A stretch of 5,324 nucleotides of DNA from Sutterella sp. UBA1442 (GTDB lineage Bacteria > Pseudomonadota > Gammaproteobacteria > Burkholderiales > Burkholderiaceae_F). Position numbers and translations under genes: made by a program. The notes under the pieces were generated by a model. That model was not told the origin of the DNA. It made no database searches and was given only the letters and a program-made list of their open reading frames with translations. The stretch covers positions 1-5,324 of the forward strand of contig DCTK01000080.1 of the NCBI GenBank assembly GCA_002329575.1. Direction: 5' to 3'. Numbering within the stretch: the stretch's first letter is position 1; every line of letters starts with the position of its first letter. Shown here piece by piece: positions 2,881 through 5,324 of this stretch.

Positions 2881-2919
2881 ATAGCGTTTTTTCGAAGCAA
2901 AAAGCTCGGAAAAGCCCCG

Positions 2920-2925
2920 TATAAT
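2920..2925 (+). promoter_or_regulatory. yajC promoter -10 element
   Basis: A perfect TATAAT lies 60 bases before the yajC start and predicts transcription from about 2931-2932. No -35 resembling TTGACA is found 16-18 bases upstream (the bases there are A-rich) and no TG extension is present. It is either a weak promoter or one needing an activator. It gives yajC-secD a transcript independent of queA-tgt. Confidence 0.5.
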
Positions 2926-2937
2926 TAACAAATCTTT

Positions 2938-2954
2938 GGTTCGACAATCGAGCC
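2938..2954 (+). other. Hairpin in the yajC 5' leader
   Basis: GGTTCGA (2938-2944) and TCGAGCC (2948-2954) form seven pairs (one G-U) around a CAA loop. If transcription starts near 2932 this stem sits close to the RNA 5' end and could protect the transcript. The T-run at 2964-2970 is too distant for this to be a normal terminator. Confidence 0.35.
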
Positions 2955-2984
2955 GGAAAATGATTTTTTTCAATGGAGTAACTG

Positions 2985-3326
2985 ATGTTTTTTATTTCTG
3001 ACGCATTCGCTCAAACGGCTGCCGCCGGTGATACGGGCGGCTTTATCGCCAGCTTGTTGCCGATGATTTTGATTTTTGTAGCTTTCTGGTTCTTCTTGAT
3101 CCGTCCGCAACAAAAGCGTCAAAAGGAACATGCCAAGATGGTTGATGGCTTGTCAAAGGGTGACGAAGTCTTGACCGCAGGCGGCATCGCCGGTCGTATT
3201 GCTGACGTGGCCGATGATTACGTCGTGGTGCAAATTGCTTCCGTTAAGGGCGAGCCTGTCACGTTGACGATCCAACGCTTGGCTGTGCAAACCGTTTTGC
3301 CCAAGGGAACGATTAAGACGTTCTAA
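2985..3326 (+). CDS. yajC: Sec translocon accessory subunit YajC
   Basis: YajC is a small inner-membrane protein of the SecDF-YajC complex that associates with SecYEG during protein export. The 113-residue product matches the family's usual length (E. coli about 110). It has a short periplasmic N-terminus with an alanine-rich stretch, one membrane helix at about residues 20-39 ending in FWFFLIRPQQKRQKEH (34-49), where the RPQ(Q)K basic block is the family signature, and a cytoplasmic domain with GDEVLTAGGIAGRI (59-72) and a final hydrophobic strand (about 97-105). ATG 2985 is preceded by GGAG (2975-2978) at six bases. It lies upstream of secD, its normal partner, but the 137-base gap to secD is wider and more structured than simple coupling would need. 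Confidence 0.95.
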   Translation: MFFISDAFAQTAAAGDTGGFIASLLPMILIFVAFWFFLIRPQQKRQKEHAKMVDGLSKGDEVLTAGGIAGRIADVADDYVVVQIASVKGEPVTLTIQRLAVQTVLPKGTIKTF

Positions 3327-3333
3327 GGCAATG

Positions 3334-3370
3334 AACAAAGCAATCGCCCGTTAAGGACGATTGTTTTGTT
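3334..3370 (+). terminator. Hairpin 1 after yajC, possible terminator
   Basis: Bases 3334-3346 pair with 3358-3370 over 13 positions (one G-U), a strong stem eight bases after the yajC stop. The loop 3347-3357 contains CCCGTTAAGGA. T-rich sequence forms the 3' arm and continues to 3372 (TTTTGTTTT), so partial termination is plausible. Its loop is complementary to the loop of hairpin 3. Confidence 0.6.
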
Positions 3371-3428
3371 TTGTGCGGTCAGTTTTTCAATGATTAACAG
3401 ACCGCCAAAGAGAGCGAGCTTAACGGGC
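3346..3428 (+). other. Loop-loop complementarity between hairpins 1 and 3
   Basis: GCCCGTTAAG (3346-3355) and CTTAACGGGC (3419-3428) are perfect reverse complements over 10 bases; nine lie in the apical loop of hairpin 1, and the partner fills the apical region of hairpin 3. The RNA could form a kissing complex, or the two segments could pair as an alternative to the local hairpins. Hairpin 2 lies between them. I recognise no described RNA family here. Confidence 0.45.
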
Positions 3429-3467
3429 CGTTCTCTTTTTTCAGTTATTTGTGGGGAAAACTCGTGA
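3366..3467 (+). CDS. Possible leader peptide overlapping secD start
   Basis: A 33-residue frame starts at TTG 3366, with AAGGA (3353-3357) eight bases upstream in the loop of hairpin 1. A shorter version starts at ATG 3390 (25 residues) but lacks a ribosome binding site. The stop TGA (3465-3467) overlaps the secD start as GTGA, the classic arrangement for translational coupling. The peptide begins with a short apolar stretch (MFCAVSFSMI), continues with basic residues (NRPPKR) and ends with SLFSVICGENS. A ribosome reading it would open hairpins 2 and 3. The frame is open all the way from the yajC stop and is in phase with yajC. The product matches nothing I know, and the frame may be open by chance. 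SecM, MifM and VemP are known leader peptides that tune sec or yidC genes; similarity here is in position only. Confidence 0.22.
   Translation: MFCAVSFSMINRPPKRASLTGRSLFSVICGENS
3375..3405 (+). other. Hairpin 2 in the yajC-secD gap
   Basis: GCGGTC (3375-3380) pairs with GACCGC (3400-3405). After one mismatch GTT (3382-3384) pairs with AAC (3396-3398), leaving an AT-rich loop. No T-run follows, so it is not a terminator by itself. It lies between the two hairpins with complementary loops and may position them. Confidence 0.5.
3407..3441 (+). terminator. Hairpin 3, terminator/attenuator just before secD
   Basis: AAAGAGAGCG (3407-3416) pairs with CGTTCTCTTT (3429-3438), 10 pairs with one G-U. 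After a bulged A, GC (3418-3419) pairs with GC (3427-3428). A run of six T occupies 3436-3441. It has all the marks of an intrinsic terminator, yet only 22 bases remain before the secD start, too few for another promoter. Transcripts must pass it to reach secD, which suggests conditional termination. Confidence 0.65.
3453..3457 (+). promoter_or_regulatory. secD ribosome binding site
   Basis: GGGGA lies six bases before GTG 3464 and supports that start. A TTG at 3449 is also in frame, but it lies upstream of this site. Confidence 0.6.
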
Positions 3468-5324
3468 ATCGTTATCCATTATGGAAATACATCGTTATCG
3501 GTGTGGCGCTCCTGATCGGGATGATCTACACGACGCCGAATTTCTTCGGTGAGTCTCCTGCAGTTCAGGTCTCGAGCCAAAAAGCGACCGTTAAAGTCGA
3601 TGAAGAGGTTTACCGCCGGGTTGAAGAGGTATTGGCCGCTGCCAATATCGAACCCAACGGCATCTTCTTTGAGCAAGGAGCTCAGCAATCGACGGTCCGT
3701 GTTCGCTTTGATCCGACTCAGGCCGAGTTGCAGTTGCAAGCCAAAGAAGTCATCGAACGAGCTTTAAATCCGGATCCGACGGACCCGGCCTATGTTGTTG
3801 CTTTGAACCTTGTGCCTAACACGCCCGAATGGTTGTTAAAGCTTCATGCGCTTCCCATGTATTTAGGGCTTGACCTTCGTGGTGGCGTGCACTTCCTATT
3901 GGAAGTGGACATGCAAGCTGCTATTGATAAGCGTATCGATGCAACGGCTGCGGACCTTCGTTCTCAATTCCGTGAAGAAAGAATTCGTCATGCCGGCATT
4001 ACCCGTGCGGGCACGGCACTTGACATCGCGTTCAGAAGTGAAGAGGAACGTGCCAAAGCGGTTGACTTGTTACGTAATACTCATCCGGAATTGTCCTTCG
4101 AAGAACACGGAGACGGTCAATATTTCCGTTTGATGGCAACGTTGACAGACGCAACGCTTCGTCAAGTGCAGGAATACGCCTTAAAGCAAAATATTTCGAC
4201 GCTTCACAATCGTATTAATGAACTCGGTGTTGCAGAACCTGTGATTGCTCAACAAGGTAGCAATCGTATTGTTGTGCAATTGCCGGGCGTCCAAGATACG
4301 GCAAAGGCTAAGGATATTTTGGGCCGTACTGCAACGTTGGAAATCCGCTTAGTGGACGATTCCCCGGAAGCTTATGCTCAATTAGCCAATGGCACAGTCC
4401 CGTTTGGTGATGAACGCTACTTTGACCGCAGCGGTGTGCCGATTTTGGTTAAGCGTCAAGTTATCTTGACAGGCGATAACTTAAACGATGCTCAAGCCGG
4501 TTTTGATCAACAAACGCAAGAGCCTACCGTAAACCTCACGCTCGATAGCCGCGGTGCTCGTATTTTCCAAGACGTCACTCGTGACAATGTCGGCAAGCGC
4601 ATGGCCATCATTCTCTTTGAAAAGGGTAAGGGTGAAGTCGTTACGGCTCCTGTGATTCGTCAGGAAATTGGCGGCGGACGAGTGCAAATTTCCGGTCGCA
4701 TGACGACGATGGAAGCGACCGATACCGCATTGCTTCTTCGTGCCGGTTCCTTGGCCGCTCCGATGGAAATCATCGAAGAACGTCTAGTTGGGCCGAGTTT
4801 GGGTGCTGCCAATATTGAAGCCGGTTTCCGCTCAACGCTGTACGGTTTTGCCGCTGTGTCAATTTTCATGATTCTTTACTATCAAGTCTTCGGTGCGGTT
4901 TCAGTTTTCGCACTGACTTGTAACGTCATGATGTTGATTGCGTTGCTCTCAATGCTTCAGGCAACGTTGACTCTACCGGGTATCGCAGCTATTGCTTTGA
5001 CGCTTGGTATGGCAGTGGACGCTAACGTGCTCATTAACGAGCGCGTTCGTGAAGAATTGCGAGAGGGAAGACCTCCGCAACAAGCCATCAGTGAAGGTTT
5101 CGATCGAGCGTTTGCTACGATTTTGGACTCCAACATTACGAGCTTGATCGCCGGTATTGCGTTGTTGATTTTCGGCTCCGGTCCTGTCCGTGGGTTCGCG
5201 GTGGTGCACTGTTTGGGCATCTTGACGTCAATCTTTACTTCCGTGATGGTCTCGCGTGGTGTGATCAACTTAATCTACGGTCGTCGTAAGAAGTTGAAGA
5301 CGCTTCACGTCGGTCAGATTTGGA
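3464..5324 (+). CDS. secD: Protein translocase subunit SecD (3' end cut by window)
   Basis: SecD works with SecF in the inner membrane, using the proton gradient to pull exported proteins through SecYEG from the periplasmic side. 620 residues are visible, in one uninterrupted frame. The order is: membrane helix 1 (about 8-24); a large periplasmic region with PMYLGLDLRGGVHFLLEV (131-148), the family signature; a second periplasmic part with LPGV (273-276), LLLRAGSLAAPM (423-434) and VGPSLG (442-447); then five C-terminal helices from about 455 to 604. LGMAVDANVLINERVREEL (514-532) contains D519, equivalent in position to the proton-relay Asp519 of E. coli. The start is GTG. Length and the ending YGRRKK...VGQIW suggest only a few residues are missing. 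secF is expected next, outside the window. Expression may be set by the structured gap upstream. Confidence 0.96.
   Translation, partial: MNRYPLWKYIVIGVALLIGMIYTTPNFFGESPAVQVSSQKATVKVDEEVYRRVEEVLAAANIEPNGIFFEQGAQQSTVRVRFDPTQAELQLQAKEVIERALNPDPTDPAYVVALNLVPNTPEWLLKLHALPMYLGLDLRGGVHFLLEVDMQAAIDKRIDATAADLRSQFREERIRHAGITRAGTALDIAFRSEEERAKAVDLLRNTHPELSFEEHGDGQYFRLMATLTDATLRQVQEYALKQNISTLHNRINELGVAEPVIAQQGSNRIVVQLPGVQDTAKAKDILGRTATLEIRLVDDSPEAYAQLANGTVPFGDERYFDRSGVPILVKRQVILTGDNLNDAQAGFDQQTQEPTVNLTLDSRGARIFQDVTRDNVGKRMAIILFEKGKGEVVTAPVIRQEIGGGRVQISGRMTTMEATDTALLLRAGSLAAPMEIIEERLVGPSLGAANIEAGFRSTLYGFAAVSIFMILYYQVFGAVSVFALTCNVMMLIALLSMLQATLTLPGIAAIALTLGMAVDANVLINERVREELREGRPPQQAISEGFDRAFATILDSNITSLIAGIALLIFGSGPVRGFAVVHCLGILTSIFTSVMVSRGVINLIYGRRKKLKTLHVGQIW

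Follow-up and report, generated by a model that had tools for sequence, protein, structure and literature searches.

Two terminator-like hairpins between yajC and secD of a Sutterella species as candidate partial terminators

The gap between yajC and secD in Sutterella sp. UBA1442, likely a gut bacterium, holds two terminator-like hairpins, which we read as partial intrinsic terminators inside one operon that would lower secDF relative to yajC; we put the probability of this reading at roughly 0.55. The window analysed here is a stretch of 5,324 nucleotides (assembly GCA_002329575.1, contig DCTK01000080.1) from an incomplete host genome of 1.6 Mb. In the mechanism that we propose, yajC would be transcribed in full from its own predicted promoter (CGTATAAT), RNA polymerase would stop in part at hairpin 1, just after yajC, and again in part at hairpin 3, 22 nt before secD, and secDF would be reached only by readthrough of both hairpins. 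The presumed purpose would be a surplus of YajC over SecDF, as stated for Escherichia coli; published estimates of SecDF abundance differ (PMC8082313). Gene order alone does not explain how YajC could stand above SecDF when both come from one operon. If the tandem terminators act here, the YajC/SecDF ratio would be measurable and could be tuned via the strength of two short hairpins.

The gene order around the gap is tgt, yajC, the gap itself, secD and a SecF-like ORF (Table 1). This last ORF lies directly downstream of secD, with an overlap or a spacing of about 22 nt depending on the start chosen. A preliminary description of the same DNA had placed yajC, the 137-base gap and the secD start, and all of these coordinates are correct. 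A yajC homologue is present in 59 of the 61 genomes searched, and no relative of SecD was found among the viral contigs. The motif that we presume to be the secD ribosome-binding site is also present in five of the six other alignment rows.

Table 1. Features of the yajC–secD region, in window coordinates
Feature	Coordinates	Strand	Remarks
CGTATAAT, predicted -10 of the yajC promoter	2918..2925	+	identical in 9/9 genus members, 50-64 nt upstream of yajC
yajC	2985..3326	+	113 aa ORF, Pfam YajC domain
yajC–secD gap	3327..3463	+	137 nt
Hairpin 1 core	3341..3363	+	terminator-like, d = 12.1; extra pairs extend the hairpin to about 3333-3371
Hairpin 1 segment GCCCGTTAAG (loop and closing G)	3346..3355	+	sequence match
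Hairpin 2	3375..3405	+	predicted fold; without T-run
Hairpin 3	3407..3438	+	terminator-like, d = 22.7; T-run 3436-3441
Hairpin 3 loop segment CTTAACGGGC	3419..3428	+	complement of 3346-3355
GGGGA, presumed secD ribosome-binding site	3453..3457	+	by position
secD	3464..5324 in the window	+	GTG start at 3464; Pfam SecD domain; stop at contig position 5344

The region 3320-3475 folds more stably than all of 200 dinucleotide shuffles (z = -4.81), which bears out the earlier view that three hairpins occupy the gap. Two of them combine a GC-rich hairpin with a T-run between codirectional genes. The core of hairpin 1 begins 14 nt past the yajC stop and is followed by a T-rich tail (3364-3372). Hairpin 3 consists of a 10-bp stem (AAAGAGAGCG/CGTTCTCTTT) with a 12-nt loop (3417-3428), and 22 nt separate the last T of its T-run from the secD GTG. 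The terminator score d comes from our own code for a formula of the d type known from the literature, and gene calls in the sister genome were made with a simple script; all counts of terminators and gaps given here are therefore approximate. At convergent gene ends of the sister genome a hairpin was found in 47 of 70 cases, with a median d of 24.1 and quartiles of 10.6-38.6. Both hairpins of the window fall inside these quartiles, and such middling values, compared with those of convergent gene ends, are compatible with partial termination. Hairpin 3 had been described as a good terminator 22 bases before secD: the position stands, and the strength is better called middling, at 22.7 against the median of 24.1.

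We compared nine members of the genus, the window species included with one genome. Hairpin 3 is found in seven of them, with 9-10 of its 10 positions paired and the end of the T-run 21-23 nt before the secD start. Its 3′ arm together with the T-run (CGTTCTCTTTTT) is identical in the seven, and the same seven (the window and six of the eight others) carry a terminator-like hairpin shortly after yajC. The loops, hairpin 1 and hairpin 2 vary between members, while the 3′ arm of hairpin 3 and its distance to secD are kept. By these sequence comparisons the conserved feature is the position of the predicted terminator before secD, not the match between loops that is discussed below. The layout proposed at the outset, three hairpins of which the third is terminator-like and stands before secD, with no promoter-like site found in between, is kept in seven of the nine. 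The two remaining members, G002 and G006, have hairpins in the gap, but no terminator at d > 0. Scores of hairpin 3 are low in five relatives (6.5-10.9); in G007 the value is 13.9, and the hairpin scored there is a longer one that encloses hairpin 3.

The transcription unit was assessed from promoter predictions. The predicted -10 element of yajC does not vary within the genus (Table 1), yet a consensus promoter scan misses it, there being no good -35, which shows the limits of that scan. Applied to the window gap (3327-3463), the same scan found neither a two-hexamer promoter-like site nor a 5/6 match to the -10 word. Elsewhere in the genus, two of the nine members have two-hexamer promoter-like matches; these are weak, and in both the -10 falls within the last part of the yajC gene, upstream of hairpin 1. 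Single -10-like words occur in the gaps of G001 and G008, downstream of hairpin 1. From the invariant CGTATAAT ahead of yajC and the outcome of the scan in the gap, it is likely that yajC, secD and secF form one transcription unit. Likewise, secD probably depends on readthrough, as had been suggested, because the terminator-like hairpin 3 lies 22 nt upstream of it and the consensus scan found no promoter-like site between the two.

The wider family was represented by 67 genomes, 64 of them with secD, from which 61 gaps belonging to 16 genera were cut out. At least one terminator is present in 36 of the 61 gaps, all within eight genera (36 of the 43 gaps there); the eight were defined by having a hit, so the absence of terminators from the 18 gaps of the remaining eight genera follows from the definition. 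These 18 gaps are GC-rich (0.63-0.78), and the distribution of terminators is confounded by composition, since T-runs are scarce in GC-rich gaps. Tandem terminators with the last one at most 32 nt from secD occur in 7/9, 4/12 and 4/5 gaps of three genera, that is in 15 of the 61 overall, and their sequences are unrelated between the three genera. The number of distinct tandem elements is smaller than 15, as some gaps are near duplicates: G026 and G078 are identical, and G009/G077 and G081/G083 are similar. If the terminators act as proposed, recurrence in three genera would offer natural variants to compare.

To set a base rate, we took 400 kb of the sister genome G005, which contains 106 codirectional gaps of 40-500 nt. 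A terminator is present in 50 of these, two or more in only two, and one at most 32 nt before the next start in 12. A terminator close to the next start is therefore not rare in the genus. The combination of tandem terminators with a close one occurs in a single gap of the 106, which is that between yajC and secD. About one in nine codirectional gaps of G005 thus has a close terminator-like hairpin, an observation that suggests a wider use of intercistronic terminators in the genus.

Partial tandem termination is consistent with the hairpins and their T-runs, with CGTATAAT, with the near-fixed spacing to secD in seven of nine members and with the same layout turning up in two further genera. 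Several observations weigh against it: G002 and G006 lack a terminator with d above 0, the tandem layout is missing from 46 of the 61 family gaps, the loop of hairpin 3 is as long as 12 nt, its d is low in five relatives, and close terminators are common (12/106). The promoter scan is also weak, missing CGTATAAT itself, and -10-like words exist in G001 and G008.

The loops of hairpins 1 and 3 had been described as perfectly complementary over 9-10 bases, and the match does extend to 10 nt (3346-3355 with 3419-3428), one of these bases being the closing G of hairpin 1. The 9-mer CCCGTTAAG lies at 3347-3355 on the plus strand and at 3419-3427 on the minus strand, where 0.04 such occurrences would be expected in the window. 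It was also considered as a genome-wide repeat or binding site, which is ruled out by its 19 occurrences in the genome, compared with 32 for the reversed control. Of 5000 dinucleotide shuffles of the gap, 19 contain a separated match of at least 10 nt, and when loop pairs are shuffled, 46 of 300,000 reach at least 9 nt. These odds hold for one gap fixed beforehand; the window gap was chosen because of its match. This placement of a perfect match in two loops, together with a loop–loop duplex energy of -15.7 kcal/mol, speaks for a switch in which loops 1 and 3 would pair and so block or lock the terminator.

The relatives argue against such control of the terminator by kissing loops. In the six that have both hairpins the loops are complementary over only 2, 4, 3, 4, 3 and 4 nt, and a separated complement of at least 8 nt is absent from all eight other gaps of the genus. 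Compensatory changes between the loops, proposed as a check in the preliminary description, did not appear: complementarity is neither kept nor compensated. Long separated matches also arise without the kissing layout, since three of 27 gaps from genera g10, g16 and g2 have them (8, 9 and 10 nt, all in g16); that of 10 nt is in a 303-nt gap and lies largely inside predicted stems. Both loops of the window are partly closed in the fold predicted from nested pairs, that of hairpin 3 on itself (GCUU/GGGC) and that of hairpin 1 through a two-pair inner stem, and ten base pairs would put a strain on two loops that measure 11 and 12 nt. A kissing-loop switch is therefore very unlikely in our estimation, and the 10-base match of the window species most likely arose by chance, through loops that turn over fast. 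The loop of hairpin 3 starts with AGCCCAG in four sisters and with AGCTTAACGGGC in the window. Purine riboswitches are kissing-loop elements, and the window resembles them in having two apical loops with complementary bases; unlike them, it has no known ligand pocket and no covariation, and the match is found in one species only. A loop match that stands out in a single sequence can thus be incidental, with the terminator's position being the feature that is conserved. As a separate observation, in G003, G004, G005 and G008 the CCCAG of the hairpin 3 loop is complementary to CUGGG at the secD ribosome site, and pairing of the two regions over 5-6 nt may form a pseudoknot. In G001, G007 and the window such pairing would span only 3-4 nt, and it was for that reason dropped as an explanation.

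A regulated attenuator is another reading: a signal, whether a ligand, a protein or ribosomes translating yajC or a leader peptide, would switch the formation of hairpin 3 and make SecDF follow the need for export. Its position directly before secD, kept despite sequence change, is a placement of the leader type, and secretion genes elsewhere are controlled by the nascent-chain sensors SecM and VemP. If the yajC–secD gap is regulated, it would be like these in controlling Sec genes from an upstream region, and unlike them in that the gap has no known conserved arrest peptide. In G003 (L032), G004 (L035) and G005 (L034), and less closely in G001 (L008), the reading frame that crosses hairpin 3 encodes ESEP..FSFSVYSGE or a similar peptide, and in these four of the nine members it terminates at the secD start or overlaps it; in the window it is not a closed ORF and runs into secD. 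The frame has no shared start and is absent as a closed short ORF from five of the nine members, and its similarity may merely mirror DNA conservation. A mutually exclusive antiterminator was not found in the window gap: the forced helix between loops 1 and 3 (nested pairing only) reaches -43.7 kcal/mol, 8.3 worse than the -52.0 of the three hairpins, and when prefixes are folded in 3-nt steps between 3370 and 3463, hairpin 1 stays closed. Rfam gave no match to the gap at the gathering score, the one hit being at chance level (E = 0.99; 20 bits against a cut-off of 60). We therefore regard the regulated attenuator as rather unlikely; regulation by some signal is possible, the hairpin 3 reading frame in the four relatives being the one hint of it. 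A broader version, in which gut Sutterellaceae-like bacteria would have a recurrent, export-tuned attenuator before secD, rebuilt in at least three genera and with kissing loops setting the switch point in the window species, seems to us decidedly improbable. The window also contains a seven-codon ORF (MNKAIAR, 3331-3354) that begins 4 nt downstream of the yajC stop and has its own stop within the loop of hairpin 1. As a leader peptide it was rejected, being found in none of the other eight gaps of the genus, and a leader peptide as regulator is not convincing.

The hairpins could also serve in RNA protection or processing rather than in termination. On this account they would act with their T-runs after synthesis: the 3′ end of yajC would be processed by RNase or protected, and a U-rich tract upstream of the secD ribosome site would serve ribosome docking. 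The T-run does lie 21-23 nt before the start in all seven species with hairpin 3, and several species have, in the yajC leader, a hairpin and a T-rich stretch before GGAG that carry no terminator score. The motif is rare at divergent starts, where 5 of 100 have a close hairpin (antisense control: 2 of 100); at codirectional starts the figures are 12 of 118 (control: 4 of 118). We consider a role at the RNA level unlikely. Alternatively, the gap could contain an unrecognized secD promoter and the hairpins would just separate two transcription units. A terminator right after yajC would be usual for the end of a unit, the g16 gaps of 129-311 nt could hold a promoter, the consensus scan that misses the likely yajC promoter could miss one in the gap too, and there are the -10-like words in G001 and G008. 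The window gap itself has no -10 word of 5/6, and hairpin 3 would still sit 22 nt before secD; we judge a promoter in the gap to be highly improbable.

Partial termination between genes of one operon, the reading that we prefer, has known counterparts. In E. coli the partial terminator between rplL and rpoB is known from experiment. The likeness lies in an intercistronic hairpin that reduces the downstream relative to the upstream genes, which in the window is predicted from sequence; the genes differ. Internal terminators are also reported to set gene ratios in the ABC-importer operons of Ruminiclostridium cellulolyticum (PMC9045158). In such an operon a stem-loop with a U-tract separates the gene for the abundant first product from the membrane genes that follow, which is comparable to the arrangement here. 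The window differs in having two tandem terminators, both predicted, with the second 22 nt from the next start, and the yajC–secD gap concerns other genes in another phylum. The literature searched, in which few subscription journals were covered, yielded no report of intrinsic terminators between yajC and secD and none of premature termination at secD by Term-seq. By that literature, the element is most likely of a known kind in a new place.

Two further observations concern hairpins in neighbouring contexts. The yajC–secD gaps of genus g16 (for example L145, L152 and L156) are up to 311 nt long and contain several long stable hairpins, the first of which is often GGGCGC...GCGCCC. The yajC leader of the window (2918-2984) was considered as the site of a terminator and rejected as such: hairpins are present, but no d score lies above zero. 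By eye, a small hairpin follows CGTATAAT in the leader, and then come a T-rich stretch and GGAG (G000, G003, G004, G005, G006 and G008). The stem of this leader hairpin varies on both arms, with GTCCGA/TCGGAC, GTCTAA/TTAGAC and GGTTCGA/TCGAGCC among its forms.
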